Shown: positions 6,511 to 63,051 of the stretch, piece by piece
How the letters are laid out: the number at the start of each line of letters is the position of its first letter
Position numbering within the stretch: the stretch's first letter is position 1
Origin: Cinnamomum chago
Lineage: Eukaryota > Streptophyta > Magnoliopsida > Laurales > Lauraceae
Direction: 5' to 3'
Length of the DNA: 64,000 nucleotides
Assembly: GCA_038049695.1 (NCBI GenBank)
Contig: CP142458.1
Coordinates: 63,211,501 to 63,275,500 of the forward strand
Notes under the pieces: model-generated
Told to the model about the DNA's origin: nothing
The model's input: the letters and a program-made list of their open reading frames with translations, nothing else
The model's database searches: none
Translations under genes and position numbers: made by a program

Positions 6511-8197
6511 TAAAGGTTGATTTCCTTTGCATATTTTGCATGAGCCAAAGCTGTCTAATTGGTATCCATGAAAATGGAAAAATTCCAAGAAAGTCTAAAA
6601 CAACAAACAATGTTATGCCTCACAACAGAAGGAATACTAAAGATTTAGGTCTACAAAATGAGCCCCATGCACACCTGATACATAGATAGGTATTATAGTA
6701 TTTATTTCAGTAGAGATTCCTAATAATCTTCAAAATTCCTTTAACAAGATGCTTTGGGAGAAGGAAACTGATGTGAATTAAATCAATCCAATAAAATAGC
6801 TGCAAGTGCACAGTTGTCTTGTTGAGATAGTGACAAATACAAGTCGATACCACATGGAGCACCACTAAGTTAAAAGTAAAAATTTGAAAAATTTTAAAAT
6901 TAAAGATTAATAAAAAAAATAATTAAGATCCAAGAAAAACTATTAAAGGTCAGAAACACAAACTAATCAAAAGTATAGAGATTTTAATATATAAAATAGA
7001 CCAGACCATCCAAAATCCACTAAGCAAGATAAATAATCCATTCATGTAATTATTCTACTTTTTCTCAAAATAACTCGGATAAGAAACCATCCATGTAATT
7101 ATTCTACTTTGTCTCAAAATAACTCGGATCAGAAGCAAATCAATGTTTCTGGTCTTGAAGATTTGTCTTTCACAAAATCCAACTTTTTTGTAAAAAGAAT
7201 AAAATCACCACCCAAGATCGACCTCCTTCGACTCAGAAAAGAATGAAAAATCATAAGCATGACTTATCAAATTAAGCATAAACTATCAAAGGATCTCAAC
7301 CCTAAGCATAATGTATAAAAATAAGCATAAATCATGAAACTATTTTCATTTCAAATCAAAACGGAGGCTGCCTAAGGCATGAAGACAAATCTATTATTCT
7401 AAAAATGCATGCATTTAAAAGAGACACGAAAGAAATAAAACGATCATATAGATTAAATAAAAAATCTACTTAAATTCATCTGTGTGCTCCAATCCAAAGA
7501 TCTAGCCAGCCATTGAAAAGAAATTTAAAATAATCTTTCTAATACCATCTCCTTTTAAAATGGTCTCTCAGAAATCTCTCTTCTAAAAATCCTAGTTTCT
7601 GGAACAAGGCTCTAGAACACCTTAAAAAAAATTAAAATCAGAAAATAATGGAGGGAAGAGAGGGAGTGGAATGGTGGTCGTCACACCCTAAAAGAGGAGA
7701 AGGCACGGCAGTTCACATGGGGGTTGCTCGCCTTAAATAGTTTTTTTTAACACAAAGTCCATCTTGATCCTTTTTCTTGCTTCCAATGAACTTTAAGAAA
7801 GGATCATCCCTTGGGCTCCATGCAAGTTTGGGTGAGACAAGATGAAAGAGAGCCCCAATCTCCTAACCTTTTTGGAATTAATTTGAATTTTGAACAAAGA
7901 TCGGGCCCACTTTTATTGTAACTAATTGTAATCCTGAGTAAAAAATTCACAACGAACTTCCCGAGGTCATAACTTGGTCATTTCAGCTTCGATTTTGTTG
8001 ATCTTAGGTCCACAGATATCTACTCTAAATAAGCTTTCAAATGGTAGGTAAATTTCACCAATCCGGAGGTCAGATTGAAAGTTATGGCGATTTTATGATA
8101 TTATGTCTTGAGAAAAACGGGGCTGACTTTCTTCTTACAATAAGACTCTTCCATACATGAGAGATGGGGCCCATGGGAGAGTGTTAGATGGCCCCTA
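6511..8197. other. AT-rich repeat-like region, possible decayed LTR
   Basis: No protein recognised. 6769-8153 has features of a plant LTR (a block near 6825-6870 of the type 'GTCGATACCACATGGAG', and at 7975-8090 phrases common in Gypsy LTRs), but I found no matching TSD or partner LTR. A ~50-bp segment is tandemly repeated at 7037-7086 and 7087-7135. Confidence 0.3.
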
Positions 8198-8520
8198 CAC
8201 TACAAAAAAAAAATATCTTAATGAGTCACTTTTAAAGTGTCTTAAAAAGTGGTTTGTGTCTCTTTTTTTTATTACTATGCAAGCGTCTTATCTGCCGGCG
8301 TCACTAAAAGTTCGTAAAAGCGTTTCAAGAAATACATTTGTTGTGTCAGTTTCTATTATCAAAGTGACACAAAAAAATGGTTACTGGTGTCACTTTAAAT
8401 CCAAAAGTGACACTAAAATAACTTAAAAGCGTCATAAGAAAGATAACTTTGTTGTCTTCCTTTTCAAAAGCAGTGATCAATATGTTGTTTTCGGACCAAA
8501 AGTGACACAAGTAGTCATCA
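8198..8520. repeat. CACTA subterminal repeat zone (left)
   Basis: Clustered copies of GTGTCACTTT and its inverse, mirrored by the zone at 13136-13334. In En/Spm such repeats bind the element-encoded TnpA protein; here this is inferred from position and repetition only. Confidence 0.75.
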
Positions 8521-9369
8521 GTTGTGACAGTTTCCATAGAAGCGAGATACCATCCATTTTTTTTAAAATAAAAATGCAATATATACATTACTAATAACAT
8601 GCTGCAGTATGGATACACTTTCAAATCACTAAACCTGCCTTACAAAAGATACAAAAAAATATAGATAGCAACATTCAATAAGAACCATTTCATTAATTGG
8701 AAATTAATCACCATTCACATTAAGGAACGTACTTGCTCGTCCACGCACTAAATCAAACAAACTATTCAAAACATAGCCAATTTGAATCCATCCATAATCC
8801 AAACTATTTACATTAACCTTCGAATTCGTAACCAAAGCGTCACGACATAATCCAAAACCTTCACAAAACCATCCAAAAAAAGGCAAGCTACATTGTAAAC
8901 AATTTCCGGAAATCCCTAACTAACCAAAATTAACTTAACCTAATTAGTAGATCCACTTAGCAAAAGGCATTCTATCTCCGTTTAATTATGTTCTTCATTC
9001 ACCTACAAAATAATAACAATTTGACTATGTATCAATAATATAATCAAGTAAGAAGGAGAGTTTAACCAACAATATCAATGATTCATGTTAAAGAGAAAAC
9101 ATTTTGTCACTAGAGAAAGAGCAATTGAAACACTAGCAGTTCACAGGTCATAAGATCATAGTAGCAAGCAAACTAGGAGCAATCAATAATTCACTAATAT
9201 GATGACCTAGTATCCATACACAGGTCTTCCCTCTCTCTCTCTCTCTAGTGGTTATCTAATAACTCTCATGTCATGTAAATGGTACCAAGAAGAAAACGTT
9301 TCAGTATTTGGTAATCTTTGAGTCAAACTCAATATGCATTGCAAAGTATAGGTACAGCATTGCACGGTT

Positions 9370-9545
9370 GGGCCTTATTTCTAGTAAAGCTTGCACTAGA
9401 GCTTGAGCTTGAGATCAATTAGTACTATCAAGCCAAGCTCAACTTATAGCCATGCTCAGGCTGGGGTTAGTTCAGCTTGGCTATAGATCAAGGTAGCTTG
9501 TTTAATGTTCAAGCAAAGCTCAAGTCAAGCTACCTCTTGCTCTCA
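9370..9545. repeat. AAGCT/AGCTT-rich degenerate repeat
   Basis: Short stretch inside the CACTA element with many copies of AAGCT, GAGCTTG and CAAGCT in both orientations. No function assigned; likely degenerate simple repeat. Confidence 0.45.
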
Positions 9546-10099
9546 AGTTCACACGCAAACACTATTAGATTCTACAGTTTCAGGGAGAAAATTATAAGAA
9601 ATCACAAGTTTACAAGTACTTGATCAAAAACCAACACTATCACAACCATTTCTACATGAATCTAATCAATCAATGATATGAGAAGACATAACAAATTTAG
9701 GAACGACAAATAAAAGTTCCACAAACCATGAAACTGACACCTTCATGTAAGATAATGGAGGAATGACAGACCAACATAACCTCTAGGTATATTTCCAATA
9801 ATATGTTATGAGGCAATGTCCAATATTATGACCAACATATTATAAGATAAATGTCTAAACCTGCTGCTTAACCCACCATCAAATCCTTTCGAAATTTCCT
9901 TTTTTTTTTATGTCTAAACCTGCAGCATTCAGGTGAATCGGATTGACGATTAAAAATGAAAAAAAAGGGGTGATAATTCTGTCATAAAAATGGGATATAA
10001 TAAAAAAAAATGGGCATTAATACATTTGACAAAAGTATGATTTTCCTAATAAAATGAGCATTTTATAAATCATACTGACAAATAACTAAATCCTCATAC

Positions 10100-10472
10100 C
10101 TCGGTGTTACTTCCAGGTCCTGACGGAAATGCCTCTCTTGGAAGCATGTTGAGAGCTTTGCGTGCAATAGTAGGAAATATTTCCTCCAAAATATCACCCA
10201 CCACTACACCAAAAATCGAAAATTGGAACGGAAAAGCGTTCCTAATCCTCCCGTTCCTAATTCGTTAAACCGTTCCAATTTCCGTTCCAATTTGGTACCA
10301 ACCGTTCCTAATCCAAATTGGAACGGAAATTGGAACGGTTTAACGGATTAGGAACGGGAGGATTAGGAACGCTTTTCCGTTCCAATTTCCGATTTTTGGT
10401 GTAGTGCACCGAAGTATCAAATTTGCTTATGAGCTGATTGATTAGTAAAAGAAAATCAACCATTTCTTTCGG
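10100..10472 (-). pseudogene. Captured exportin-T (PAUSED) exon, split by MITE
   Basis: Reading the minus strand from a 3' splice site at 10472 (TTGATTGCAG) to a 5' splice site at 10100 (GAG then GTATGAG), and passing over the MITE at 10202-10406, the exon encodes PKEMVDFLLLINQLISKF, then a block ending FPSGPGSNTE. These match the plant tRNA export receptor exportin-T (PAUSED), whose family carries the same 'VDFLLLINQL ... FPSGPG.NTE' region. Exportin-T moves tRNA from nucleus to cytoplasm; only one internal exon is present here, so this is a captured fragment, not a gene. Splice sites are preserved, which suggests the element could splice it into a chimeric transcript. Identification is from memory of the family. 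Confidence 0.7.
10202..10406. mobile_element. 205-bp hairpin CACTA MITE, TSD CAC
   Basis: Left arm begins CACTACACCAAAAATCG, right arm ends with its exact inverse, and CAC is duplicated at 10199-10201 and 10407-10409. The two arms, each about 94 bases, are inverted complements with only two mismatches seen by eye; the loop is about 17 bases. It sits inside the captured exportin-T exon. No coding capacity. The near-perfect arms imply recent insertion or birth. Confidence 0.95.
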
Positions 10473-10980
10473 CTGCAATCAACAAGGTGCAAACAGAATA
10501 AGCAAACGCCAAAACCACCATAGTGCATCAAGTGTAAGCAAGACTTAATTGAACATTGCCAAACCAAAACACCTCACAAAAATCAGACTACTTATAAGCA
10601 AGTGTAATAGAACACTATCAAATCCTAACACTTGATTAAACTTGAAAGTTTAAGACAATAGGAACATGAGAATGGGATTAATAGTCATCTACAATAACTG
10701 TACAAACAAAGAAGGGAAAAGAAAGGTTAATTCAGCCCAAGTGGGGTCCAATCATTAAAGCAAAACGGGAAAGGATAAAAAAAAAGGAAAGAAAAAAATA
10801 AGAAGGGCAACCATGTGGATTCTAAATAATCACCGGGGCCACACATGCTCAGTTCAAGACTTCAAGTAATATACAAAAATGGTTTAGATGTAATTATGGT
10901 ACAAAGAGGAATCTGAAGATTCTATAAGCAGAAAATGTCAACATACTGACCATATATAGTTCATATTTGGTCAAATAATT

Positions 10981-11123
10981 GCACCATGCAACTGATATCC
11001 TAGGATCAAGGTAGTTGATCTTTGATGTCCCCAACGCTACAGTCTTTAAATCCTCTTTGATCTTCATATCGAACTCCATTTTTCTCAATCTTTGCATTTG
11101 TCTGAGCAATTTTCTTTTCTAAC
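10981..11123 (-). pseudogene. Captured DNA topoisomerase I exon fragment
   Basis: After a 3' splice site (GATCTGCAG) at 11123 the minus strand encodes [14 protein letters not shown], then, one base out of frame, [17 protein letters not shown] and RISVAWC. This is the linker/C-terminal region of plant topoisomerase I; the SKINYLDPR segment contains the catalytic tyrosine. One extra A in the A-run at about 11060 shifts the frame, and similarity stops after AWC without a splice site, which I take as the capture boundary. A full protein would need about 800 further residues, so this is only a fragment. Confidence 0.85.
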
Positions 11124-11639
11124 CTGCAGATCAGTGGATAATTAAACTAATAAAGGTGTATTACCGAGCAAACATAGAAAAATGGAACCAGATGTATTAC
11201 TGCAACAGAAAAAGATGGCATAAATGGTTCTAGCAGAGAAGCTAGAAGATACACGAGCCTAATTGAAGTCCTCAGCACAATGGAGCAAGCAGATTGGTCT
11301 TCCTTTTAAAGTCTCCAAAATTGACTATCCTATGTTTTAGACATTAAAAGGGTAAAATGTTACAGTTCAGTTGCATGATAAAGAAATTAACAAACAAATA
11401 ACACTCTGTGATGGGGGGCGGGGGGTGGGGTGGGGGAGACGCTCACTGGAAATGCTCATTGCAGTTCTGAGACCTTGTTTTAGCTTAACCTAGGTCGAGC
11501 AATACATACAAACGACTGTTAGGAGTGATTTCATTGAGTAAAATCACCAATCCAAGCTACTCATTTTTCTGGCTATATGTACAAACTGAAAAGCTTATCA
11601 TCTATGAATATCATATTATTCAAGGATACAGTGAATTAC

Positions 11640-11758
11640 CTTCTCCATAGCTTCAAGATACTGATCAACATATTTACTGACTTTCTCTGCTAGGCTCTTA
11701 GTTAAGGGATGCGACTCTGCATTTGGAGCATCAGGAATGGTACAATCATAGCCTAATC
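11640..11758 (-). pseudogene. Exon-like captured fragment, gene unidentified
   Basis: Bounded by a 3' splice site (TTGTTCTGCAG) and a 5' splice site (GAGAAG then GTAATT), this 119-bp segment is open and encodes a peptide including DCTIPDAPNAESHPLTKSL and EKVSKYVDQYLEAMEK. It looks like a real internal exon rather than chance sequence, but I do not recognise the donor gene. Location between the DCAF1 and topoisomerase pieces suggests a fourth captured gene or a further exon of one of them. Confidence 0.55.
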
Positions 11759-12737
11759 CTGCAGAACAAGCTAACAATGAGTATAGCATGAATTTATTTC
11801 CGCTAAGGACAGGTATCTGCATCTAACATAGACATGTGTTGTTTGACATAGCAACACCAGTAGGCATTCGCCTGGCAGCCAAATGATGATAATGAAAGGT
11901 AAGGAAATAAACTTACTGCATAAAAAATTGTATGTTCATTAGAATTAAACAAGGGAAAATGAGGAAGTATCAGGTCATCAGCATCGGCAAATTTACAAAC
12001 GCACTGGACTCAGTATTTGGGTGGCCCATGGTTCAATTACATCGACTATGTATCTAAAGGACTTGGATGAAAGATGTTCTAAAGACTCCCAGATAAGGAA
12101 ATGCTAACTTTTTGATCTTTTGCCAATTGGCATACAAGCGGATGAGTTAATTAAGATCAATGAAATTCTAACTCTTTGAACCTCCCTCATTTGACAACAG
12201 TGAACAGATAAAGAGTTCAGATCTAACATATTTTCGTACATGAATAATTCATCTACAGTATATTTTAGCTCTAGAACCTTTATATTAATTAATGGATGTT
12301 CAAAATCCACATATGAGTATGAACACTATGCACCCAACAAGTGCATCAATCCAACCATCCAAACCCATTCTAGCTACAGCACCGAAATCCAATCCTAGCG
12401 ATCTGATTGTGGTCATTCAACCACATTTCAACCTTCACCTCCACATCCATTATTCAAATGGTAAAGATTGCAGTACACGTAAACTGCACCAACCCCCAAT
12501 AAGCCACATCAAAGTTCACCCCAACACAAGCATTAAATCCAAACCACAAACTAAAACACCCAAATCCCAAAAAATCACTTTAGGGTTTTAATCTCCCCAC
12601 CCCAAGAACCCACCCTTTTCGCCCAACTCCTAAAAAACAGAGTCAGAATTCAAAACCCTATATCTCAAACCCTAGAAATCAGATACAAATTCGAGCCAAA
12701 AAGAGAATAAAAAAAGGGAAATGGATGGAAACCCAAC

Positions 12738-12937
12738 CTGGATTCCTGGGTCTCCATCATGGATGCGAGGGCATGGAAGAGATTAGGCCTAGGGTTTGAA
12801 TGGTTTGCCATGATCTTGTCGATGATCTTCTGCGCTCGGGAAAGAAGGAGTTCGGCCTCGGTCTCGGCCTCGTTCTTGGGAGGGTCCTCTGATTCCGGTG
12901 CTTCCGCGGACTGCTGAGAATTCGGTACGGGCTCCAT
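12738..12937 (-). pseudogene. Captured DCAF1 first coding exon
   Basis: From ATG at 12937 the frame encodes MEPVPNSQQSAEAPES, an acidic stretch, then AQKIIDKIMANHSNPRP and HALASMMETQESR, ending at a 5' splice site (GAATCCAG then GTTGGG) at 12738. This is the start of plant DCAF1, the substrate receptor of CUL4-DDB1 ubiquitin ligases. Upstream (12940-13090) is UTR-like with CA and GA runs, so the donor's 5' UTR was probably captured too. The remaining ~1,900 residues of DCAF1 are absent. Being nearest the right end of the element, it would provide the start of any chimeric transcript. Confidence 0.7.
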
Positions 12938-13135
12938 GAGAGGAGGAAGAAGATTGAAAAAAAAGGCTTCTTTTTTTAGGTTTTTGCAGTTCTTCTTGTT
13001 CTCTTCCTCTTCTGTGGGTTTTTGCAGAAAGCGAAGAAAGAGAAGGTGGAATGAATTTATATACACACACACGAGAGAGAGAGAGAGAGATCAGAGAGAA
13101 ATTTAGTTTGGATTATTTTAAAAATTTGTTCAGAT

Positions 13136-13334
13136 AGTGTCACTTTAATTAAGAATAAAACGAGACATAAAATTTGTTTTGTATGTCGCGTTATAGAAAA
13201 GTGACACAACAAACCTCCTCCTCGTTTACTCCTCCTCTAAAGTGACACATCAGACCATACTGTGTCACTTTATTGTAAAAGCGACACAAAAGCTCAATTT
13301 AAAAGCGAGACTAAAAGTCTTTTTTTTTGTAGTG
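13136..13334. repeat. CACTA subterminal repeat zone (right)
   Basis: Copies of GTGTCACTTTA and AAGTGACACAA plus degenerate AGCGACAC, mirroring the left zone. Confidence 0.75.
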
Positions 13335-15747
13335 CTACATGTGTGGAGTCCTTCTTAGACTCTGCTTCTTTGTTTCTTTTACCTTCTTTCAATTTGAGTC
13401 CAACTCTATCGATCTTTCTTTCTTATCTTATCTTCAAATCTGGATGGGACTGAGAGAGATAGAGAGGAAAATTTCTTTGATGCTCAGGATAAGAAAGAGA
13501 GGGAGTGGGAGGTCCAAGATGATGTGGGGTCCAGTTTTGGCTTTAGTTTGCTCAATCTTTCTCTCTGTTGATACTTTCTACGATGTTCAAACTTCTTGAG
13601 AGATAAGGATAGGGGAATAATCTAAAGGCATCTGGAATCTTCCTGGATGAGGGGAAAGAGTGTTGGATATCCCATTGCAAAGTCTTGATGCTAGTAGGAC
13701 TGTTCTCCAAGGCTTGTTCTCCAAGCCTTCTTCAGGGTTCTGCTAGTCATGCATTTCCTGTACATTCTAACTTAACCCACAAAATGATGTAGAGCATAAT
13801 TTGAAGTGGGACCCGTTCGGACAGAGTTTTACTTCAACTAAGACTTTTCGAAGAAAAAGTTGCATAAAATACTAAATAATGCAGAGAGTGTATGAAAAAT
13901 GCGGAAATTCCAATCCCTAATTAAAAATTGCATGAAATGATGAAATTAAGTGCAAATTGATGCATTTAACCTAATTAAGTCCCTAATTCACCCTAGAATG
14001 ATGCTTAAATGGTGTAATTCCTTGCACTTAATTAACAGAAACCATTGCCCTAATAAATATGAAAAGATAGAACAACAAATTTAATGAGTTGATTTTTAAA
14101 ATTTAATGAGTTGATTCTTTCTTGCATAGTTTAAAACTTTTTCTTTCCAACCATCTAAACTTAACCAAATCTTTGTAAGCAGTCCAACCATCTAAACTTA
14201 ACCAAATCTTTGTAAGCAGCGGATCGCAATCGACTATAGTCAATCTCTTTGTACAAAGGGGAAGACCAAGATTCCTAACCAATGGTGGAAATAGTATCTT
14301 GAAGATGTGATCGAACCTCAAGTGTAGGGTACGGTTGTAGTAATATATAATCTGGTGAGACCAGGTCGATCCACAGGGAGCTATTGAGATAAAGCTTTCC
14401 TACTTGTACCTGCCCTAAATGAAATCTAAAACTAGCCTAATTGAAAACAAATTACAATCATTCCTACTTTAATTAAAATAATTAATTACAACCCAATGAA
14501 AGAAAAAATCTCCTAAAACTAAATTCCTAAATCTAAAAAGATCAAGTTGATGCAAAATAGAAATTAAACACATTAGAACATCCAATTAGAAAATATTCTA
14601 AAAATATCACTTACTAAAATTAAAACTAACAAACGAAATTGGAAAATAAAACAAGTTATTAAAAAAACACTCCAAAAAAAAATGTATCAAATCAAATCAA
14701 TCAAAATTGGAAACAAATCATCCATCTAAGATCAAACTCCCTAAGATTAGAAACCTACAGTATTAGATTAGAAACCAATTAACTTTCCTAAGTTAATTAA
14801 ACAATAGATTAAGATAAGAATATAAATGAAACACTTTCTAAAAGAATGCAAATCTGAGAATTAATTTTTCCTAAATTAAATAAAATACAAGAATGATGAG
14901 GATGTACTTTTCTAAAAAATAATTGTGGGACACAATGCATGGACGTGCGTGAACTAGTGCAAAGTTTTTATTTTATTTTATTTTTACTTCCTAATTTTTT
15001 TCACCTATCACTAGACCAAAACCTATCTAAACCACAGTTACTAGCTGAATTTTTTTAATATCCAAAGATGCATGAAATTCCAAAACAGAACAAGTGGATA
15101 AATGTGCTAATTCTGAAATGCAATGTATGACAGCTAGCATGGGACGTTCATGACTAAGCACTATTACAAGATCTACATGAATTATGCAAAAGGTTCCAAA
15201 AATCAGTCTTGAAGCCATTGTCCTTGTGTAATAAATTTCAAAAGGCTATTTTCTAATCCAAACATATTTAGCTCATGTGACTTTCAAATCTGATTTCGGA
15301 AATTAACATAACTACACCACTTCTAAGACGCTTTAAAATCTGTAAAATATGCATGAAAACTAATGTAGTTTCAGCAGTAACATAATCTGAACATATTAAT
15401 GTAAAGATAGAAAGATAAAGTGCAGAAACTAAAGAAATATGCAGAAAATAAAGATGGTGTGCATAAGTCAAAGGTGGTAGAAAAAAAATATAAAGGTGGT
15501 GAGTTGCTCTTTAAAATCTCATTCTCAATCTTGGGCCCAAAAAAATTAGAAGTGCAAACCTAGGGTCCTGTTCTTCAACTTGCGTTGTCAATCCAAGTTA
15601 AGAATGATAAATCCTCACTTTTTAATAAACAAATTTCAGACTTGGATCCTTAAACTTTTCTTGATCAACCCTCTTCAACTTTACATTGTATTGCCTCCAA
15701 AAATACCATGTATCCATAAAAAATAAGGTATATTGTGAGGATGCTAA
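13335..15747. other. AT-rich region, no gene recognised
   Basis: Continuation of the sequence interrupted by the CACTA element. It holds short tandem duplications (a ~40-bp unit at 14146-14220; a ~20-bp unit at 14080-14115) and, at 14325-14390, a phrase seen at the internal edge of plant LTRs, so part of it may be an old LTR element. I find no protein. Confidence 0.35.
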
Positions 15748-24140: not shown

Positions 24141-26367
24141 CTAAGGACAGGGTGGAGGAACTTGGGTCCCCGCGTAGAGAGCTTTGATATTGGAACACAC
24201 TGATGTGAGTGGAGCTCCACCTTTGCCTGGTGTTATATTAATTTCCTCGAGCTTGACGTTCTTGCATGGCAAGCCCTTGCTACAACGGAGTGTTACACCA
24301 GCCTCAGATGCAGAAGTCCCTTTGATGTTTTTGAAGGTGACATCGCTGATCTGCACTTTAGAAGGTACCTACATGTTGCAATTGAAGGAAAGGAGAGAAA
24401 TGAAGTTGGGAATTGAAAATGTTAGCTCTACAACATAGGAATGAGTTCTATATCGAAATTCCATGGGAATGGCTGATTGAACTTAGAGAAGAAGAAGAAG
24501 AAGAAGAAGAAGAAGAAGAAGAAGAAGAAGAAGAATTGTTTAATCTCTTCATACCTCATTTGCACAGGAGCCACTAGGACAGTACTCCTGATCGATGATG
24601 ATTGGATTGTTGACATTCTTGAAGGTGATGTTCTCAAAGGTTACGTTGGACACAGAGCTGGCAGAGGGAGAGTTGGACCATGACTTGATCCTAATACCAT
24701 TCAAGGTGTCTGAGATGGTGCTGTCACTAATGATGAGTCCAGTCACATCCTTCTCACCTGGGTACTTTCCTAAGCTCCCCACACTGTTAATTTTTTTTAT
24801 AACAAACCAATCATAAGACCAAACAACAACAACAATTACAACAAGCACGCAATCAGTCAGCAATGCCTAGGCAACAAAGCAAAGGTACGTGTCATATCCT
24901 TTTGCTTAATTATTGAGTATAAAAGTACAATATCCCATTTTAATTTATAATTATAAGTTATAGCATAGAAGAGATGGAGAAGAAAAACGCACCTTATTCC
25001 ATGGCCTGGTCCACAAGTTACTTTACTGATGTGTACATTAGTGAGGCCCTGTCCGAGTGAGATGCAATCGTCGCCGGTTCCAATTGTAGCACCCTCGATG
25101 GTCACATCGGAGCAACGCTCCACATGCATTCCATCAGTGTTGGGACTGTCGCCGGGGTTGGTGACTTTGAAATTTACAGCTTTGAAGTTCGTGCATTCGA
25201 CGACACCAAAGTTGAAGTTCTTGCTATTGAGCGATGTTATGCCATCGATGACAGTGTTGGTCATAGATATGAACTTCACGTTCTGTGGAGTAGACACAAT
25301 AAAGTTATTGACACTTGATGCAAGATTAAGATTTTGTAGGCATCCACCTCCTCCAATTTATTTCTAATTGAGAATTGGATGTATATATTATTACTACTTA
25401 CAGTTGGAAGAAGCTTGCACTTTTCATTCTTTTGGCAATCGTTTAAGTGCCAAATAGAAGCTCCTTGCCCATCAAAAACTCCAGTTCCAGTGATGGTCAA
25501 CCCATCTATCGATCCAAAATATACCCAATCTCCACTTGGAAACTTGTTCAGGTCGGTCTCCGCCAGCAAGTGACCCTGTAAAATACAAATAAAGATTGAC
25601 ATGATTAATCTTTATGTAAAGTAGGTCTAGTAATCAATAGTGTGACACTTAAACCATGGATGATATTCTCATGATCATGCAACAAAAATGACTAATGTTT
25701 GCTCACTGTATGCCACTAAAAAAAAAAAAAAGAGTTTCAGCCGATGTAGTCTTACATCCAATTTCATGGTTATAGATGGTACGCCTTTGCAAGGTCCTGT
25801 GAATTTAAGAGGACCCATCCAATAATCCCCTTTTGGAACTATAATTGTAGCTGGTCCGCTGGACCCACATGCCGCCGTCCATGCATCTTGAAATGCCTGC
25901 TCACCCACAAAATTAAGTGTCAGACATAAAATGAAATGAGAATTTCTTTTGGGTACCCAGCTTTGTGGGGTAGGGAGCCCAGCCCTCTAAGGAAGGGAAG
26001 TAGATATTGGGTGAGGTGAGGGAGATCTTGGGTGAGGTAGGACATCCCTTGGGTGAGAGAAGGTGGCAGCCATATAAGAACTGACGCCTCTCACCACTAG
26101 GATAAAAGGTCGTTCTTGAGATAATATGTAAACAGTATGATACAAATCTAAGTACAATTATTGCCCCTTTGTGATTGAAGAATTGTCCACTGAAATAAAA
26201 ATAAATAAATAAACATTCTTTATTGTTATCAAATTAACTAAACCAACCTTGGCATCGTCAGTTTTCCCATCAGCTTTTGCCCCATGGTCCATAATGTTGA
26301 ATTCTGCACACAGGGCAACTCCAATGAAACAACAGATAATGGATAGGAAGATGCTTTGCTTCCTCAT
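24141..26367 (-). CDS. Exopolygalacturonase (GH28), six exons, intact
   Basis: Secreted glycoside hydrolase family 28 enzyme that removes galacturonic acid from cell-wall pectin. Exons on the minus strand: 26248-26367, 25756-25896, 25402-25575, 24993-25282, 24555-24783, 24141-24368, all with GT..AG introns; they sum to 1,182 bp, 393 residues, a normal family length. Visible parts: signal peptide (hydrophobic residues 5-20, cleavage likely after LCA), N-terminal DHGAKADGKTDDA, and all four GH28 catalytic signatures: SPNTDG, GTGDDCIS, GPGHGIS and GIRIKSW. Cysteines near the C-terminus (CSKGLPCKN, final PPPCP) agree with pollen-type exopolygalacturonases, so pollen expression is plausible but inferred. 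No premature stop found. Intron 5 contains a (GAA)n run next to its 5' end. A broken copy in the opposite orientation lies at 63129. Confidence 0.93.
24487..24534. repeat. (GAA)n microsatellite in polygalacturonase intron 5
   Basis: About 16 trinucleotide units, 20 bp inside the intron from the following exon boundary region. Confidence 0.9.
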
Positions 26368-26457
26368 CTTTATTGTCGTTTATTTATTTTTTTTAATATT
26401 TTTTTCTTTTTCTTTTATTTGAATAAATATTTCATGTTAGATAGGTGCGGAGGTTAT

Positions 26458-26468
26458 GAATTTATAGG
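26458..26468 (-). promoter_or_regulatory. Likely TATA box of polygalacturonase
   Basis: CCTATAAATTC on the minus strand, about 95 bp upstream of the ATG. The same block, CCTATAAATTCATAA, is kept in the pseudogene copy at 63037-63051 at the same distance. Confidence 0.7.
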
Positions 26469-27236
26469 ACTTCTGTCTGAAATGGCCATTTGGTCATCCT
26501 TAAATGTAGCAATCCCCTCTCAAACCATAAGCACCTGTAAATAGGCTGAAAAGAATAGTCAACCCCCTTTAACGCACAACCATTTTGACGCAAGGGTATA
26601 CCACTAGACTTTGTTTTATACATTGGTACTTTGAATTTTATCTACCTTTACTTTAATTTAAGTTTACAAACTTTGTCTCAACATATCTATCTAATTACCA
26701 TCAACCAAAGATAGTTTTGAGGGGAAGATTCAAAATGAAGCGATTTGTATAATGGTTTACTAGAAAATTAAAACATGCCCACGCTTACCACAGGCAATAT
26801 AATTTATAATATTTAAAAATATTTAATTTTAAATAATATTTAATATAAATTATATTTAGATGGTAAAAATTGCAATCAAGATTAAAACCTATAATAATAA
26901 AAAAATATAGTTTGTTAATTTTAAAATAAAAAATGTATAGAAATAAGAAGGATGATTTAGAAGAAACAAAATACCAATGAGAAACCAATACCAAAAAAAA
27001 AAAAAAAGATTGCTGAAACTAAAAAATTAAAAATAAAAATCATCAAAATTAATAATAACAATGACGACAATGTGCAGTTGCTCAGTTGGTTGGCAACCCT
27101 AAATGTCATCTAGATACCTAGAGAAATCACAATAACACCAAATAAAAATTTAGTTTCATGTTTAAGCATTTATTGCAACAAAAAAGATCTATAAAAAAAC
27201 AAAAGAAAAGAACTGTAACATAAAAACTGTATAAGG

Positions 27237-31162: not shown

Positions 31163-32867
31163 TGAAAGTCCACGAGGATCCTAACCCTAGAGGGGGGGGG
31201 GGTGAATAGGGTGAGCTACAACTATGACCAATTTAGACCAATTTTAAATTCTTAATTTAAACTAGTCACATGTGATGATAAACAATCAAAATGCGGAAGC
31301 TAACAATACCATCATCACAAAGCAATCACCACAACACAATATTTATAGTGGTTCGGCCAACGTGCCTACATCCACTACCGGCTTGTGATCCAATCACCCC
31401 ACCGGATTTCCACTATTTATGCTTTTTCAAAGGCTAAGCAATAACCTCTACAATGTTGCTTTTCAAAGGCTAAACAACAACCTTACAAGATGCTTTTCTT
31501 AGGCTAAGCAATAACCTTACAATATGCTTTTCTTAGGCTAAGCAATAACCTTATACAATGCTTTTCTTAGGCTAAGCAATAACCTTTACAAATAAAGCTT
31601 TCTCTAAGAAAGTGTCTTTACAAAAGATCACTCTAAGAGATTACAATTTAAGCTCATATGAAATTGCCTCTTGACTAGGCTAATATGAAAGTTTAATACA
31701 AATAACAAACATACACTCAATAAGTTAAAGTGTGTGCACAAGTGTATGAATGCTCTACTTCAATCTATTTTAACAATGAAGCTCTTAAATGAATGCATGA
31801 TGCATTTTAAAATCAAGGCTAATAAAATGATGATTGAAGAGAAAAATACTAATCACATGAAAGATTCACACAACTTGAAGAAATGATCTAAAACATGTTG
31901 TATGAATATAAAAGTCTAAGAACACATGTGATTTAGGTGAGAGTGATTGCAAACCATTCTAATATACCAATGAAGATAATGAGTTTGCAAAACAACTCTT
32001 GAAATCATGCATAAGTGAAAAACAAAGATTTAAGCATGCATGGATTTCATTTTAATGAAAATCAAAATACAAGTAAAGTGTACCTTTTTAAGAACTCATG
32101 TATTTGATTTCCAAATGGCCCCCTAGCCTTTCCAACTTCTTCCCCTTTCTTTGGCTCCAAAATGCTCTCAAAGGTTCATGGTTCAAGCCTTGAAAAAGGT
32201 TGGAAATGAATGGACTTTATAGCCAAAAAGTTGCCAATGGCTAGTTCTCGGTCGACCGGCAAAGAGGTCTCGGTCGACCGAGAAGGCACAACGGTCAGAT
32301 TTCTTACCGTTGGGGCTACAGTTCAGAAAACTGTCCACTTGCCCTGCAGTGGTCTCGGTCGACCGGCGACACTGCCGGGACACCCCCAAAAATTCCAACT
32401 TTTGCATTTTGAAGAATTTCTTTGTGGAATTTTGTGGGTCACTAAACCAAGCTTAAAAACATGTTTTAAAACATTTAAAAACATGAAACACACAAAGCCT
32501 AAAATGATTCAAAGGTTTAAAACCAAAGGCTAGCTTGATTTGATAAAAACTCTTTTCAAGTGAACAAGCATACAAAAATGATTCTTTTTGTAATGAATGT
32601 ATGCAAAGCTCAAACCTAAATACCTAACATGATTTTCCAAATATAATGCACAAGGAATTAGGTTTTCAAAAGAGTTTTGGGTTCTAAAACCAATGCATCC
32701 AAGTTTAGAACCAAACCATGCATAAAACACAAACTTTTCCAAATTTAAAAACCAATGCATGTATAAAGCTAGATTTCAAGATATTTTAAATCAATGCATG
32801 TGTGTGAATTCAAATGATGCCAATATGCAAATGCATCCATCAAATTGCAAATACAAAATCCCTAACA
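31163..32867 (-). repeat. 3' LTR of gag-only element
   Basis: Contains a ~36-bp repeat (AGGCTAAGCAATAACCTT core) five times at 31425-31590 and TCTCGGTCGACCGG modules near 32250-32365. Confidence 0.95.
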
Positions 32868-35280
32868 ATCTCCCCCTTTGCAATTTGATGGCAACTTACT
32901 CATCATTGAAATTACACACTCTGTCTTCAGCTCCCCCTCAGCTGGACAAGTCTTGAAATCTTCTTCTTGGATGCTCCTTCTCTTAGCTTGGGCTCTTGGG
33001 CTCTTTTCTTCAATCTTCTTGATGCTTGGTGCTTGATCATTCTTCAAGCTTTCTTATCATCTTCCTCTCTATGGCCAAGCATCTTCTTTAGCTCCAAGCT
33101 TTCTTTCTTCTATTTGCTCTCCCCCTTTGACCATGCCTCTCTCTCCTCTTGAGAACTTGAAAGCTTTCTCCCCCTTTGATGGATAGGAGATCTTCGAGTA
33201 CTTGAACTCTCGAACTCTCTCCCCCTTTGAAGAGTAGGAGATCTTTGAGTCACACTTGAACTCTCTCTCCCCCTTTGACATTAAATTGCAAAGGTACCTA
33301 CACACATGAGACAAGAAGAATACCTTTAGTAGCACCTGTTAACAAATGTAATCGAAAATGAAATACATAACAGGCTATCATGTATGTAAGTTAACTCTAA
33401 GGGCTCATTAGCATTCCAAGGGTGAATTTGATCAAAACTAATTCTTCCTATGAAGGTTTACACTCCCCCTCAATCCATTCTCTTCTTTTGTCAAGCTTTT
33501 GACAAGATATAACTATTAGATTCAAGAAGTAGATGGTTTAACCAAGTGAGGGTTAACTTCAAGGAAAGGATTAGATTCATTTAACTATTAAGCACAATAT
33601 GATCAAATTACCAAAAGAGAGCTAGGTCTAATGGGAGAAGCAATCATGGATATCAATTGAAACAAACATATCAATTGAGATTAAAGGATATGACTATAAA
33701 CTCAATCACTCTAAAATGGATTTAAAAGTATAACTATTATGAGAAATCCAAATTAGAGCTATCCATGATATGGGGTTTACTCAAACATAGCATCAATCAA
33801 TATTACTTATGAAAATCATATGCTATGTAAGTTTTGAAATCATTTCATTCAAACAATAAATATGACTATTAATGAGCAAGAATGAATGAAATGAAATTCA
33901 AACATGAAGCCAACCTCAACTAATAACCAACCATTATTATGAACACATAAACATGGTGGTCATGAGATATAACTATAAGAACAAAAGAGGTGGCAATCAT
34001 GAGCATTATGATGCTAATGGTGTGTGACATGGAACAAATATATAACTATGAAGATTAGTCCAAAGCACACAAGGTCTATCACATACACAAGATAAGATAT
34101 CAATTGGATATGAAATCAATGGAACATTATACCAAATGAAACCAATTGAATATGATAACATGAGTAAAAGCAAGGATGTGATAAAAATTCCATCAAGCAT
34201 CATAAATGCATATTCATCACTTTTAAAGATATGACTATTGAGCATAGTGATGAACAAGGCAAATTGCAATGCAAAAGGATATGACTATGAAATGCATGCA
34301 ATTTCCAAAGTGTCTAGATCATATGAATTCAACACTAAGAAATCCATCAAACAAGAGATATAACTATGAAATACAAGTAATGGATTTCAAAAAAAAAGGT
34401 TCATATGATCAAGAACACTAATATGAGGTTGAAACATGTATAAGGATGATATCAAGAGAATACACATGAATCAACATCATAACCATCCACAAAGAAATGA
34501 CTATTAGGCATAGAGGATGGATTTGGGTTCTAGTATGGTTTTTACAAATAATACCAATATCACAACCATACATGGAACCAATTGTCATTTGCATATAAAA
34601 AGAATAACTAAATAAGCAAAGATGCAAACAACATTCATTTCCAATTCTAAGATAATGAAACCAAAAGAAAAGGAAATGAGAACATGGAACATGCTTAGAT
34701 GAATATAACTAAAGAGGTTATAGAGCATTTCCATTCAAACAATCTTCAAATCAACAAAATCCTACAATGAGCATAAAAGGAATGATTTTGAAGATCAATT
34801 TTCAACATTGTATTTGAAAAGATATAACTTCATTAAAACACATACAAGTTGATTTTTCAAAACAATGATTTTCCATATAAAGGTATACCTTATAAATCCA
34901 TGGAAAAACTTGAATTGATTCAAATCATTTGATTTACAAAAAGGATTTAAATAAGACATCCATCAAATGATCTAACAACTATTGATCATGACAAATTAGC
35001 TATGGAAGCTTTTAACATCACAATCAATTAATCATGTAAAGAAATGCAATGCAAGGCATATGAGTGCAAAAAGCAAATCAAACATGATGAAATTAAAATC
35101 AAATGATTTTGAAAACCATGTCATGTAACTTGAAATGGTGCATGAAGACAAAATCAATTGATCATAAAGAAGCAATGCATTTTAAAAGATGTAACTATGA
35201 AAGAACAAAATGCAAATGCAACATGACCAACAAAATGATATAACTTAAAAAGAATAGGTTGGTCATGAAGGTCAAGGCCT
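32868..35280 (-). other. Non-coding spacer with ~16 copies of an ATATAACTATGA-like motif
   Basis: Between gag and purine tract. At 32880-33290 pyrimidine-rich, with repeated TCTCCCCCTTTGA blocks; from 33500 to 35250 the motif ATATRACTATNA recurs about every 60-130 bp (for example 33506, 33688, 33730, 33860, 33966, 34040, 34229, 34279, 34357, 34497, 35189). No long open frame. See findings. Confidence 0.8.
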
Positions 35281-36837
35281 TTAAGGTTTGTCTAAGTGAA
35301 TGACTTTGGGAATCCACCTAAGGTCTTGAGAGGGTTGAACTTTGAGGTCTATTTTGGAATTCTCACCAACTATAGGAGATTTAACTTGATAAATTTTCAA
35401 TTTGAACTTATCACCATGATATTTAGATTTTACTAAATTTGGCTTAGAATGGTGATTAGTCTTTTGATGTTGGTGAGTTTGTTTCTTTGGGGATTGCTTC
35501 ACTTTTCTTTTCTTCTTATTTTCTCCCTTTACTTGACTTTTGAATTTTAAATTTAACTTAGCAACTTTCTTCAAAAGTTCTTTCATGTTTTGACTAAAGG
35601 GAGGTAGGTTGAGAAGCTTTTTGTTTATAGATTCTTTTAAGCTAGGTTTGACTTGTTTAACCTTTTTAGAATCTATTTTTGGAGACTCCTTGTTAATTGG
35701 TTTAACTTGTTTAAGCTTTATGGAGTCTTCCTTTGTTTTTAGTGTCTTACCCTTCAAGTTTGATTTTACTTTCTTGAGTTCAAAGATGGGTTTAGACACA
35801 TAGCTTCTTTTCCTTGGTTTGCACTCAAATGTAAAATGCCCTTCAATGCCACAATAATTACATTTTGATTTGGGCAAGGGAGGAAGAGTGCTAGAGAAAG
35901 AGGACTCACCTTTCACAAAAGTGTTGGTGAATTTAGGGTCATAAGACATATTCCTATTGAATCCAATACCCGTCCTATCTCCATGAGGTTTACCCATTTT
36001 AAATAATTTTTCAAGTCTATCTTCACTTTGGGTAACCTTGCACTCATACTTTTGTTTATAGTTTTCAAGTTGAGTGACTTTGATTATAAGGATTGAATTT
36101 TCATGTTTGACTTTTGAAAGTTCATTTTCAATTTCCTTATAATTGTTTAGCTCTTCATAGGCAAGTTTTAACTTAGAATTAAGCTCATTAACAACATTAG
36201 ATCCAAGTTCTAAAGTTTTTAAATTACTTTGAGCATTAGACAAATTTTCATTGGAAATTGTCAACTTGGATTTAAAATAGTTAATGTTTTCATCTTGTCT
36301 TTTAATTGTATCTCTTAGGTTTAAATTTTCATTTTTAAGCTCATCACAATTTATCTTAATCTCATTTAATTCATCTTGAGTATTAGATAAATTTTCCTTA
36401 GAGAGAGTCAATTTAGATTCAAGATTGTTAAAGTCTTTGTCTTGCCTTTTTATTTGATCTCTTAGATTTAAATTTTCCTTATTGTCATTTTCATAATCCA
36501 TCTTTAAATCTCTTAGTTCATCTTGAATGTTAGATAGATTATTTAAAGAGATCATGAACTTAGATTCTACACAATTTATAAATTCATCTTTTTCTCTAAG
36601 TTCATTTTTAGAAGAGTCTAATTCTTGGTTTAGCCTTTTAGATTCTTCTTTTAATCTTTTATTTTTCTTGGAAACCTCTAAGGACCATGTGTACAATTCC
36701 TCATAGGCTTCAAGTTCATCAAATTCTTCTTCTTTTAATTCAAGTTGAGATTCTTTAATTTCAATGTTTGAATCTCCATAAGATGGAAGAATGAGGGGTC
36801 TAGAAGAATCTACAAAGTCTAGCCTAGTGAAGTCCAT
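35281..36837 (-). CDS. Gag of the gag-only retroelement
   Basis: A 518-residue open frame. Residues about 25-280 are a long coiled coil built on a repeated ~52-residue unit (NLSNTQDEL ... NLNLRDTIKRQD ... SKLTLS), seen about three times. A CCHC zinc knuckle, CNYCGIEGHFTFEC, lies at about residues 327-340. The C-terminal third is very lysine-rich (KKVKSNLKGK-type runs), suggesting nucleic-acid binding. This is the only coding region of the 31163-38680 element and would form the particle shell, with enzymes supplied by autonomous relatives. Intact, in keeping with the nearly identical LTRs. Confidence 0.88.
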   Translation of the reverse strand: MDFTRLDFVDSSRPLILPSYGDSNIEIKESQLELKEEEFDELEAYEELYTWSLEVSKKNKRLKEESKRLNQELDSSKNELREKDEFINCVESKFMISLNNLSNIQDELRDLKMDYENDNKENLNLRDQIKRQDKDFNNLESKLTLSKENLSNTQDELNEIKINCDELKNENLNLRDTIKRQDENINYFKSKLTISNENLSNAQSNLKTLELGSNVVNELNSKLKLAYEELNNYKEIENELSKVKHENSILIIKVTQLENYKQKYECKVTQSEDRLEKLFKMGKPHGDRTGIGFNRNMSYDPKFTNTFVKGESSFSSTLPPLPKSKCNYCGIEGHFTFECKPRKRSYVSKPIFELKKVKSNLKGKTLKTKEDSIKLKQVKPINKESPKIDSKKVKQVKPSLKESINKKLLNLPPFSQNMKELLKKVAKLNLKFKSQVKGENKKKRKVKQSPKKQTHQHQKTNHHSKPNLVKSKYHGDKFKLKIYQVKSPIVGENSKIDLKVQPSQDLRWIPKVIHLDKP

Positions 36838-36938
36838 TTAAATGATTTTCAAATAAGCACAACTCTAGGGTTTTAACTCTAGGTTTTTACACCTAATCAA
36901 GAGTTCCAAACACTTGATCCTAAGGGATAGAGCACTTG

Positions 36939-36950
36939 GCTCTGATACCA
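36939..36950 (-). other. Primer-binding site (tRNA iMet)
   Basis: TGGTATCAGAGC on the minus strand, two bases from the 5' LTR. Confidence 0.9.
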
Positions 36951-36952
36951 AT

Positions 36953-38680
36953 TGAAAGTCCACGAGGATCCTAACCCTAGAGGGGGGGGGGGGTGAATAG
37001 GGTGAGCTACAACTATGACCAATTTAGACCAATTTTAAATTCTTAATTTAAACTAGTCACATGTGATGATAAACAATCAAAATGCGGAAGCTAACAATAC
37101 CATCATCACAAAGCAATCACCACAACACAATATTTATAGTGGTTCGGCCAACGTGCCTACATCCACTACCGGCTTGTGATCCAATCACCCCACCGGATTT
37201 CCACTATTTATGCTTTTTCAAAGGCTAAGCAATAACCTCTACAATGTTGCTTTTCAAAGGCTAAACAACAACCTTACAAGATGCTTTTCTTAGGCTAAGC
37301 AATAACCTTACAATATGCTTTTCTTAGGCTAAGCAATAACCTTATACAATGCTTTTCTTAGGCTAAGCAATAACCTTTACAAATAAAGCTTTCTCTAAGA
37401 AAGTGTCTTTACAAAAGATCACTCTAAGAGATTACAATTTAAGCTCATATGAAATTGCCTCTTGACTAGGCTAATATGAAAGTTTAATACAAATAACAAA
37501 CATACACTCAATAAGTTAAAGTGTGTGCACAAGTGTATGAATGCTCTACTTCAATCTATTTTAACAATGAAGCTCTTAAATGAATGCATGATGCATTTTA
37601 AAATCAAGGCTAATAAAATGATGATTGAAGAGAAAAATACTAATCACATGAAAGATTCACACAACTTGAAGAAATGATCTAAAACATGTTGTATGAATAT
37701 AAAAGTCTAAGAACACATGTGATTTAGGTGAGAGTGATTGCAAACCATTCTAATATACCAATGAAGATAATGAGTTTGCAAAACAACTCTTGAAATCATG
37801 CATAAGTGAAAAACAAAGATTTAAGCATGCATGGATTTCATTTTAATGAAAATCAAAATACAAGTAAAGTGTACCTTTTTAAGAACTCATGTATTTGATT
37901 TCCAAATGGCCCCCTAGCCTTTCCAACTTCTTCCCCTTTCTTTGGCTCCAAAATGCTCTCAAAGGTTCATGGTTCAAGCCTTGAAAAAGGTTGGAAATGA
38001 ATGGACTTTATAGCCAAAAAGTTGCCAACGGCTAGTTCTCGGTCGACCGGCAAAGAGGTCTCGGTCGACCGAGAAGGCACAACGGTCAGATTTCTTACCG
38101 TTGGGGCTACAGTTCAGAAAACTGTCCACTTGCCCTGCAGTGGTCTCGGTCGACCGAGACCCAGGTCTCGGTCGACCGGCGACACTGCCGGGACACCCCC
38201 AAAAATTCCAACTTTTGCATTTTGAAGAATTTCTTTGTGGAATTTTGTGGGTCACTAAACCAAGCTTAAAAACATGTTTTAAAACATTTAAAAACATGAA
38301 ACACACAAAGCCTAAAATGATTCAAAGGTTTAAAACCAAAGGCTAGCTTGATTTGATAAAAACTCTTTTCAAGTGAACAAGCATACAAAAATGATTCTTT
38401 TTGTAATGAATGTATGCAAAGCTCAAACCTAAATACCTAACATGATTTTCCAAATATAATGCACAAGGAATTAGGTTTTCAAAAGAGTTTTGGGTTCTAA
38501 AACCAATGCATCCAAGTTTAGAACCAAACCATGCATAAAACACAAACTTTTCCAAATCTAAAAACCAATGCATGTATAAAGCTAGATTTCAAGATATTTT
38601 AAATCAATGCATGTGTGTGAATTCAAATGATGCCAATATGCAAATGCATCCATCAAATTGCAAATACAAAATCCCTAACA
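36953..38680 (-). repeat. 5' LTR of gag-only element
   Basis: Same as 31163-32867 but with one additional 22-bp GGTCGACC-containing unit near 38150-38172 and a longer G run at 36981-36991. Confidence 0.95.
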
Positions 38681-44870: not shown

Positions 44871-45262
44871 TTTTTTTTAAACATCCTGTATTTTCTCAAT
44901 TCTTTTCCTTCGTTTTATACATGTACCTGATATATTATCAATTAAAATTACAAATACTACCATCAATTAAAATTACAAATACTACCATCAATTAAAATTA
45001 CAACTACTACCATCAATTAAAATTACAAATAACAAAACAAAAGAAAGTCTTATATTAATTACATTCAAAACATTACAAAAGTTTCAACAAATTATATCCA
45101 TTACAATTACAGGAAAAAAAAAAAGTCCATGCAGGGTGTCGTGGTAGAGCCAATGCTCTCAAACCTGAACAGAAAAAGGAAAATAAATATTAATACTTTA
45201 CTATAAAATTTGATAATTTATACTAAATATAAAAAAATTAAGAATTAAAATTAAAATTTAAA

Positions 45263-47120
45263 CCTACGTTTTAACTGTACGAGCAATCCGGGAGTCGGAA
45301 TCTTGTTCCGTCAGTTTCTACAAGTCATGAATGACTAAGGGGCCGTGCCCATCAAGTTTCACGGGCAACGAAGCCCGTTTGCTCATTTTGGGTGCCTGGA
45401 TGCTCGTTTTCTAAATTTTAAATTAACGTTCTAACTTAAACCTACGTTTTAACTGTACGAGCATTCCGGGAGTCGGAATCTCGTTCCGTCAGTTCCTGCA
45501 AGTCATGAATGACTACGGGCCCGTTCCTGTCAAGTTTCACGGGCAACGGAGCATGTTGGCTCTTTTGGGCGCCCGGATCCTCGTTTTCTAAAGTTTAAGT
45601 TATAGTTCTAACATAAACCTACGTTTCAACTGTACGAGCAATCCGAGAGTCGGAATCACGTTCCGTTAGTTCATGCAAGTCTTGAATGACGACGGGCCCA
45701 TGCCCGTCAAGTTTCACGGGTAACGGAGCTCGTTTGCTCGTTTTGGGCGCCCAAAGGCTCGTTTTATAAGTTTTAAGTTAATATTCTAACTTAAACCTAC
45801 GTTTCAACTGTATGAGCAATCCGGGAGTCGGAATCACGTTTTGTTAGTTCCTATAAGTCATGAATAACTACGGGCCCGGGCCCGTCAAGTTTCACAAGCA
45901 ACGGAGCCCGTTTGCTCATTTTGAGCGCCCGGAGGCTCGTTTTCTACGTTTTAAAGTAACGTTCTAATTTAAACCTTTGTTTCAACCCTACGAGCAATCC
46001 GGGAGTCGGAATCTCGTTCCGTCAGTTCCTGCAAATCATGAATGACTACGGACCCGTGCCCGTCAAGTTTGACTGGCAACGGAGCACGCTTGCTCGTTTT
46101 GAGCGCCCGGAAGCTCGTTTTCTAAGTTTTAAGTTAGTTTCTAAGTTAAACCTACATTTCAACTCTACAAGCAATCCGGGAGTGGGAATCTCGTTCCGTC
46201 AGTTCCTGCAAGTTAGGAATGACTACGGGCCCGGGCCCGTCAAGTTTCAAGGGCAACGGAGCACGTTTGCTCATTTTGAGCGCCCAGGTGCTCGTTTTCT
46301 AAGTTTTAAGTTAGTTTCTAAGTTAAACATACGTTTCAACTCTACGAGCAATCCGGGAGTCGGAATCTCGTTCCGTCAGTTCCTACAAATCATGAATGAC
46401 TACGGGCCCATGCCCATCAAGTTTCACAGGCAATGGAGCACGTTTGCTCATTTTGAGCGGCCGGAGGCTCGTTTTCTAAGTTTTAAGTTAGTTTGTAAGT
46501 TAAACTTACGTTTCAACTCTACGAGCAATACGGGAGTCGGAATCTCGTTCCGTCAATTCCTGCAAGTCGGGAATGACTACGGGCCCGTGCCCGTCAAGTT
46601 TCATGGGCAACGGAGCACGTTTGCTCATTTTGAGAGCCCAGAGGGTCGTTTTCTAAGTTTTAAGTTAGTTTCTAAGTTAAATCTACGTCTCAACTCTACG
46701 AGCAATCCGAGAGTCGGAATCTCGTTCTGTCAGTTCCTGCAAGTCATGAATGACTACGGGCCCGGGCCTGTCAAGTTTCACTGACAACGGAGCCCGTTTG
46801 CTCGTTTTCTAAGTTTTAAAGTAACGTTCTAACTCAAACCTTTGTTTCAACTCTACGTGCAATTCGGGAGTCGGAATCTCGTTCCGTCAGTTCTTGCAAA
46901 TCATGAATGACTACGGGACTGTGCTCGTCAAGTTTCACGGGCAACGGAGCACGTTTTCTTGTTTTGAGCGCCCGGAGGCTCGTTTTCTAAGTTTTAAGTT
47001 AGTTTCTAAGTTAAATCTACGTTTCAACTCTACGAGCAATCCGGGAGTCGGATTCTAGTTCCGTCAGTTCCTATAAGTCAGGAATGACTACTGGCCCGTG
47101 CTCGTGCCCGTCAAGTTTCA
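45263..47120. repeat. ~177-bp tandem array, 11 units, inside CACTA
   Basis: The anchor ACGAGCAATCCGGGAGTCGG recurs at about 45277, 45455, 45632, 45810, 45989, 46167, 46342, 46519, 46697, 46855 and 47029, i.e. a period of 174-179 bp with one shortened unit (158). Units also share CGTTCCGTCAGTTCCTGCAA and GGGCCCGTGCCCGTCAAG. Since 177 is a multiple of three, a 248-codon frame (46038-46784) stays open across four units; I regard it as a by-product. Confidence 0.95.
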
Positions 47121-58057: not shown

Positions 58058-58062
58058 AATAC

Positions 58063-62920: not shown

Positions 62921-63036
62921 GGGGTTGACCATTCTCCTGAGCACATTTAGAGGTGCTTATGGTATTAAATGAATGGTATAGTTGACAGAGAGTTGCTACA
63001 ATTAAGGATAACCAAATGGCCATTTCAGATTGAAGT

Positions 63037-63051
63037 CCTATAAATTCATAA
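63037..63051 (+). promoter_or_regulatory. TATA box of polygalacturonase pseudogene
   Basis: CCTATAAATTCATAA, same sequence and spacing (about 90 bp to ATG) as in the intact copy. Confidence 0.65.

Follow-up and report, generated by a model that had tools for sequence, protein, structure and literature searches.

Pack-CACTA elements of Arabidopsis were reportedly described by Catoni (2019, as cited), with a model in which neighbouring related elements fuse. This neighbour-fusion model is also found in the consulted part of a 2026 review (PMC13317346), and a survey of Pack-TYPE elements, as far as its consulted portions go, recorded multi-locus content, which was highest in maize Pack-CACTAs (PMC8903248). 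Captured fragments are likewise carried by CACTA elements of Chenopodium, in the account of which abortive gap repair (Rubin and Levy 1997) is cited as a mechanism for capturing unrelated sequence (PMC8978399, consulted sections). The closest relative in build is Tgm-Express1 of soybean, a 5.7-kb CACTA with fragments of five unrelated host genes that is known, from the portions consulted, to yield alternatively spliced chimeric RNAs (Zabala and Vodkin 2007, PMC1947982). Here we report on a 5137-bp element from Cinnamomum chago, located in a 64,000-nucleotide stretch (contig CP142458.1, positions 63,211,501 to 63,275,500), hereafter called the window. It is a Pack-CACTA whose host-gene fragments are replicated as passengers. 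We are highly confident that it is best explained as an element of one CACTA family (family 1) into which a multi-gene cassette was handed over from a second family (family 2), the join being formed once and then amplified.

The element was delimited by its terminal inverted repeats (TIRs) and target site duplication (TSD). Its outer parts are as follows:

8195..8197: left TSD, CTA
8198..13334 (5137 bp, C8:63219698-63224834): non-autonomous CACTA (Pack-CACTA) element
8198..8212, plus strand: left TIR, CACTACAAAAAAAAA
8198..8624: left arm with AAAGTGACAC motifs, 87-88% identical in one diverged subset of copies and lying inside 94-96% matches in others
8600..9213: segment 98-99% identical to 21 further places (among the best 40 of 508 candidates)
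13089..13334: right arm, also present in copies lacking the adjoining DCAF1 piece
13320..13334, minus strand: right TIR, TTTTTTTTTGTAGTG
13335..13337: right TSD, CTA

A preliminary description of this locus had announced perfect termini and a TSD, and both were recovered: all 15 TIR bases are paired and CTA flanks both sides. With up to one mismatch, CACTACAAAAAAA occurred five times in the window where 0.48 occurrences were expected, being exact only at the two ends of the element. The subterminal motif AAAGTGACAC was found in eight exact copies in the whole window, all of them within the two arms (8361-8508 or 13137-13271). TIRs, a 3-bp TSD and subterminal repeats, by which the CACTA superfamily is recognised, were thus all present. 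No transposase domain was detected by Pfam in nine open reading frames (ORFs) of the left end, where the sole match was DUF1365 at E 0.093; the longest stop-to-stop ORF of the element (141 aa) belongs to its DCAF1 part, and neither Rfam nor a tRNA scan found anything in the window. The ORFs tested without transposase, the host-gene fragments with introns and the several insertions together are those of a Pack-CACTA.

The genome searched comprised 1.06 Gb in 14 contigs. With 12400-13334 as query, the best 40 of 538 candidates were scored, so that copy counts are lower bounds: at least 16 near-complete matches were obtained at 88-100% identity (window included), and the right arm alone (query 702-935 or nearly) was seen at at least 22 further places. 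All six family-1 elements read at both ends displayed matching 3-bp TSDs (CTA in the window, TAA at C8:54664983-54672873, TCC in L020, TCG in L024, AGA in L025 and CCA at C4:94357660-94364798). Among the other copies, which were picked for this check because their BLAST match extended to the element's end, the left ends started with CACTAC in 21 out of 21 and the right ends finished with TAGTG in 14 out of 15, the sole exception being the rearranged L018. The ends thus recur in other copies, whereas unshared ends would have refuted the preliminary description, and they are those of a genuine mobile family. Its full-length sister at C8:54664983-54672873 displayed the parts in the same order as the window element at 95-96% identity (99% for one part of 325 bp) and in addition holds a 2.9-kb insertion that begins with TG, finishes with CA and looks like a long terminal repeat (LTR) type element. 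A further family-1 stretch, 98% identical, was encountered outside the window at C8:63204860-63205471, about 14 kb from the window element.

Between the arms, fragments of four unrelated housekeeping genes were identified, all in one sense:

9925..10045, minus strand: far piece of DCAF1 intron 1, 97% identical to the C9 locus and 94% to the C11 locus
10046..12228, minus strand: exportin-T/TOP1/MetRS cassette, about 1975 bp excluding the nested element at 10202..10406 and its duplication
10048..10933, minus strand: exportin-T (XPOT/PAUSED) fragment, donor at C11:53.559 Mb, 98%
10472-10100, minus strand: exportin-T exon with both splice sites, interrupted
10202..10406: nested 205-bp miniature inverted-repeat transposable element (MITE) with CACTA ends CACTACACCAAAA and TSD CAC, a near-perfect palindrome
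10932..10982, minus strand: 47-base exportin-T intron piece, derived from the same gene some 0.8 kb farther upstream
10979..11156, minus strand: topoisomerase I (TOP1) fragment of 178 bp, made of 33 bp of intron and 145 bp of exon (11123-10979)
11166..12228, minus strand: cytosolic methionyl-tRNA synthetase (MetRS) fragment, donor at C8:6.983-6.984 Mb, 96%
11201..11329, minus strand: MetRS exon C, interrupted by an in-frame stop in the window copy; 3' edge inferred
11442..11489, minus strand: remnant of MetRS exon B, whose 3' end and splice donor were removed by a 26-bp deletion in the window copy
11640..11758, minus strand: 119-nt MetRS exon A with its splice sites
12229..13088, minus strand: putative DCAF1 core promoter, 5' untranslated region (UTR) and exon 1, running into intron 1, with TATATAAA at 13056-13063
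12738..12937, minus strand: coding part of DCAF1 exon 1, with ATG at 12937 and a GT donor

The preliminary description had proposed at least three unrelated donors on the minus strand, with full genes elsewhere sharing their introns; four were found, at 4.86 Mb (DCAF1) and 53.56 Mb (exportin-T) of C11, 6.98 Mb of C8 (MetRS) and 41.66 Mb of C2 (TOP1). It had counted four exons, most with splice sites, which stands for the exportin-T exon, MetRS exon A and the DCAF1 donor site and fails for TOP1.

The DCAF1 donor at C11:4.855 Mb matches both 12229-13088 and 9925-10045. We take the gene to be DCAF1 by its likeness to the plant protein, to which three further exons at the C11 gene would fit; no database search gave that name, exon 1 yielding weak matches alone in PDB (E 4.5 and worse) and, as best Pfam match, an importin repeat at E 0.071. 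The captured 5' region probably represents a promoter, with TATATAAA as its putative TATA box region. A partial duplicate of DCAF1 on C9 (L016, C9:53112000-53121900) comprises the promoter region, exon 1 and part of intron 1 together with an insertion. It is bigger than the piece captured by the transposon, and neither family-1 nor family-2 arms were seen within the 9.9 kb read.

TOP1 was traced to C2:41655060-41655236, to which the window piece is 99% and the piece of three other copies 100% identical; the preceding TOP1 exon, located with a motif, adjoins this donor. The peptide, read through a frameshift caused by a 1-nt insertion in the window copy, matched Pfam Topo_C_assoc at E 2.3e-18. 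Since the captured piece breaks off within the exon, a splice donor is absent. A family-2 arm (82%) was encountered at C2:41648053-41648705, about 6-7 kb from the donor exon. This fits a local-insertion model with capture beside a resident element; the arm was noticed post hoc, near one of three cassette donors and among the best 40 of 1124 candidates.

The exon at 11758-11640, left unidentified by the preliminary description, belongs to MetRS, which contributed three exons rather than one. By itself it found nothing in Pfam or PDB. The identity first came from upstream exons in a longer family-2 copy and was then confirmed by searches: the joined exons of the longer copy matched cytosolic methionine-tRNA ligase 5gl7 at E 5.6e-33, and a search of the genome with a catalytic-domain model placed collinear catalytic exons upstream at the C8 donor. 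The anticodon-domain model gave no match in the genome.

For exportin-T, the uninterrupted peptide of copy L032 matched Pfam PF19282 at E 5.8e-4, below the gathering score, and the donor at C11:53.559 Mb lies about 6 kb from a match to the same model at E 1.6e-21 that covers the protein's front portion; nothing was found in PDB. The 47-base intron piece is 90% identical to its source in the window and 98-100% in four other loci. An internal exportin-T exon had been described previously. Its two splice sites are present and it is split by the 205-bp MITE, the arms of which measure 94 bp and are 98% complementary. Nineteen loci out of the 21 tested, the gene for exportin-T included, have this site empty (the remaining two being uninformative), and a 99.5% identical MITE occupies a different position in L037. 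A transcript of the MITE would fold as a long hairpin.

The origin of the mosaic was indicated by its joints. In family 1 the cassette has DCAF1 intron on both flanks, and the middle 343-344 bp of that intron are gone. The same exportin-T/TOP1/MetRS block is longer in three other elements (on C10, C6 and C1) and runs past both cassette edges, with at least 1254 bp of exportin-T and at least 2569 bp of MetRS gene sequence. The C10 carrier (C10:49549640-49557853) is a complete 8214-bp CACTA that has TSD ACA, ends CACTACAAGAAACTGCAC, a TIR pairing at 16 of 20 positions, and a subterminal motif CGTCGGTAA found 14 times in the arms and four times between them. Its left arm, that of family 2, was recovered at 39 further places among the best 40 of 1124 candidates, including places that lie some 3 kb away from the cassettes on C6 and C1. 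Between family-1 and family-2 arms there were short matches only (the longest over 51 columns, the best at E 0.001 over 18 bases). A Helitron origin of the cassette had been considered and was dropped, the C10 carrier being a CACTA.

The left cassette junction was the same in 17 out of 17 copies aligned and the right one in 13 out of 13, the window being included in both. Because both junctions are common to the copies compared, the join was formed once and then amplified, and because family 2 holds the longer form, the direction was apparently from family 2 to family 1. We therefore consider it probable that gene-carrying CACTAs trade ready-made exon cassettes across families, the three-gene cassette of family 2 having been copied into the DCAF1-carrying family 1. 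A DCAF1 fragment (TATA-box region, exon 1 and part of intron 1) lies between family-1 arms, and fragments of exportin-T, TOP1 and MetRS form one contiguous composite in family 2. A slice of that composite, cut within exportin-T at one edge and within MetRS at the other, occupies exactly the place where the DCAF1 intron bases are missing. It was presumably put there during repair of a double-strand break (gap), with a template switch to a family-2 element and completion by end joining; the few non-matching bases observed at two joints would be compatible with the latter. The element would be moved by transposase supplied from elsewhere, and the window copy has acquired its MITE, frameshift, stop and 26-bp deletion. 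The captured DCAF1 core promoter may yield a spliced chimeric RNA.

The following points weigh against this account. No family-1 copy with an uninterrupted DCAF1 intron was found among the 39 of 39 interval candidates scored; the cassette trees were nearly unresolved and by themselves gave no direction; among the three carriers of the cassette in family 2, C10 alone was read at both ends; and nonsynonymous changes in exon 1 numbered 36 against 44.4 expected (P 0.03 by shuffles, a test that ignores shared ancestry and CpG context). In the trees, L041 was labelled family 1 by default only, and L045 likewise, the latter being absent from both trees; the two carry cassette pieces, and their ends lie outside the stretches read.

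The first of these points bears on the order of events. Since no family-1 copy with an uninterrupted intron was found, the order with DCAF1 first and the cassette second is unproven, and DCAF1 and cassette may have entered together in a single multi-template repair running from DCAF1 to family 2 and back. This is the best explanation's variant in order alone, so that the likelihoods of the two overlap, and we regard it as a possible, clearly less favoured course. Of 39 candidates, every one of which was scored, the C11 gene and the partial duplicate on C9 were the only two to contain the missing interval in full, so that no transposon copy has it; three short weak matches elsewhere (43-124 bp, 73-88%) were taken as unrelated. 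The shared junctions would suit a single event. However, ten DCAF1-bearing family-1 elements with an identical right DCAF1 edge displayed no cassette in the stretches examined, which fits DCAF1 first, although they could be deletion derivatives.

The preliminary description had further suggested that one chimeric spliced transcript might start from the DCAF1 ATG. That a fused transcript and protein are made from the DCAF1 promoter and ATG under selection appears very unlikely. In its favour, all 16 copies retained TATATAAA together with the exon-1 GT donor, the exon-1 frame was open in 11 of these 16 (broken in five), exon 1 plus TOP1 of the C8 sister was open over 126 aa, and the deficit of nonsynonymous changes given above, though mild, points the same way. 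Against it, exon 1 ends in phase 2, and its frame is continued neither by the MetRS exons nor by the exportin-T exon. Direct joins from exon 1, the only ones modelled, added four residues with MetRS exon A, three with B, 19 with C, 39 with TOP1 and ten with exportin-T in the window copy, so that five out of five stopped within 3-39 residues and no continuous frame across donors was obtained. The TOP1 join was in frame at first, the first 15 of its 39 added residues following the TOP1 frame, and in the C8 sister it added 60; MetRS exon A of that sister has a mutated acceptor, in place of which a neighbouring AG was taken. The acceptor AG of MetRS A was missing in three out of five other DCAF1-cassette copies aligned, the TOP1 piece offers no splice donor, and the window copy has suffered a frameshift, a stop, the loss of a donor and the MITE insertion.

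Substitutions per site per copy amounted to 0.0225 in exon 1, 0.0221 in the promoter and 5' UTR and 0.0094 in the intron; exon 1 thus outpaced the intron. An excess of C to T and G to A changes is expected for methylated repeats, and 47 of the 71 exon-1 changes were of this type. On these rates, and with five of 16 frames broken, DCAF1 exon 1 displays little sign of constraint and no selected function is indicated, the nonsynonymous deficit leaving perhaps a little room for selection. As judged from sequence, the gene fragments are probably passengers; a spliced chimeric RNA is possible, and any encoded protein would consist of the DCAF1 N-terminus (66 aa) and a short tail. For annotation this is a warning, as the TATA box and good splice sites invite chimeric gene calls with which frame and mutation pattern disagree.

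An independent capture of every exon from its own gene by family 1, as the preliminary description implied, would agree with the presence of the four genes elsewhere at about 96-99% identity. It is contradicted by the family-2 elements, which reach further into both outer genes and hold the same exportin-T/TOP1/MetRS joints; the internal joints of three out of the four donors being identical, it is not believable that they arose repeatedly, and this route is considered highly improbable. Descent of the four exons from one ancestral locus or segmental duplication, the competing possibility named in the preliminary description, is suggested by shared orientation alone and has a negligible chance, the donors lying separately on C11, C8, C2 and a distant C11 site, each beside other parts of its own gene. 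The observation of the preliminary description is confirmed and its interpretation partly supported.

Elsewhere in the window, direct repeats about 5.8 kb apart were found at 31192-38463, where two 300-nt stretches are 100% identical (spacing 5791 and 5813, with an indel between); together with a 518-aa gag-like ORF at 35281-36837, this looks like a recent LTR retrotransposon. Nine tandem satellite-like copies at 45239-47114, 62-90% identical to the reference copy and spaced by 177-178 bp (334 for the last), are spanned by a 274-aa open frame. At 24857-25357 and 25439-26523, a polygalacturonase-like exon adjoins a stretch that recurs inverted about 37 kb away at 62982-64000 (74-96%). Closely spaced copies of 239-245 bp at 57187-58059, both direct and inverted, are 100% identical, possibly being very recent or an assembly effect.

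Multi-gene Pack-CACTAs are already known, and the hand-over of a cassette between families is the point of interest here. Multi-donor capture had been called known in principle by the preliminary description, which holds and is understated, Tgm-Express1 being nearly the same in the parts covered (PMC1947982). None of the titles or abstract openings searched described the passage of a cassette from one CACTA family to another, nor did the literature search made here return a paper combining three of DCAF1, exportin-T, topoisomerase I and CACTA. The final product is usually the sole basis for inferring how transposons gather unlinked gene fragments. In this genome the assembly steps are readable at base level because donors, intermediate composite and final composite coexist at about 96-100% identity. 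This suggests that exon shuffling may run via a shared pool of transposon-borne cassettes; if so, mosaic depth would grow by recombining mosaics, besides gene-by-gene sampling.

In the portions of the literature consulted, Tgm-Express1 resembles the window element as a CACTA of similar build with several unrelated host-gene fragments; it differs by its genes, its position in an F3H intron and its cDNA evidence, and the covered parts of its account contain no block transfer such as the cassette traced here to its source family (PMC1947982). Pack-CACTAs of Arabidopsis and maize, as far as the survey was consulted, share CACTACAA ends, a 3-bp TSD, captured coding DNA and multi-locus content (PMC8903248). 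Abortive gap repair, as presented in the consulted sections, fits the deletion-plus-insert anatomy of the window element; here, the template was apparently another composite transposon, a process that we infer. In contrast to the neighbour-fusion model as outlined in the part of the review consulted, the block came from a family whose arms differ, and it is nested in another captured fragment.

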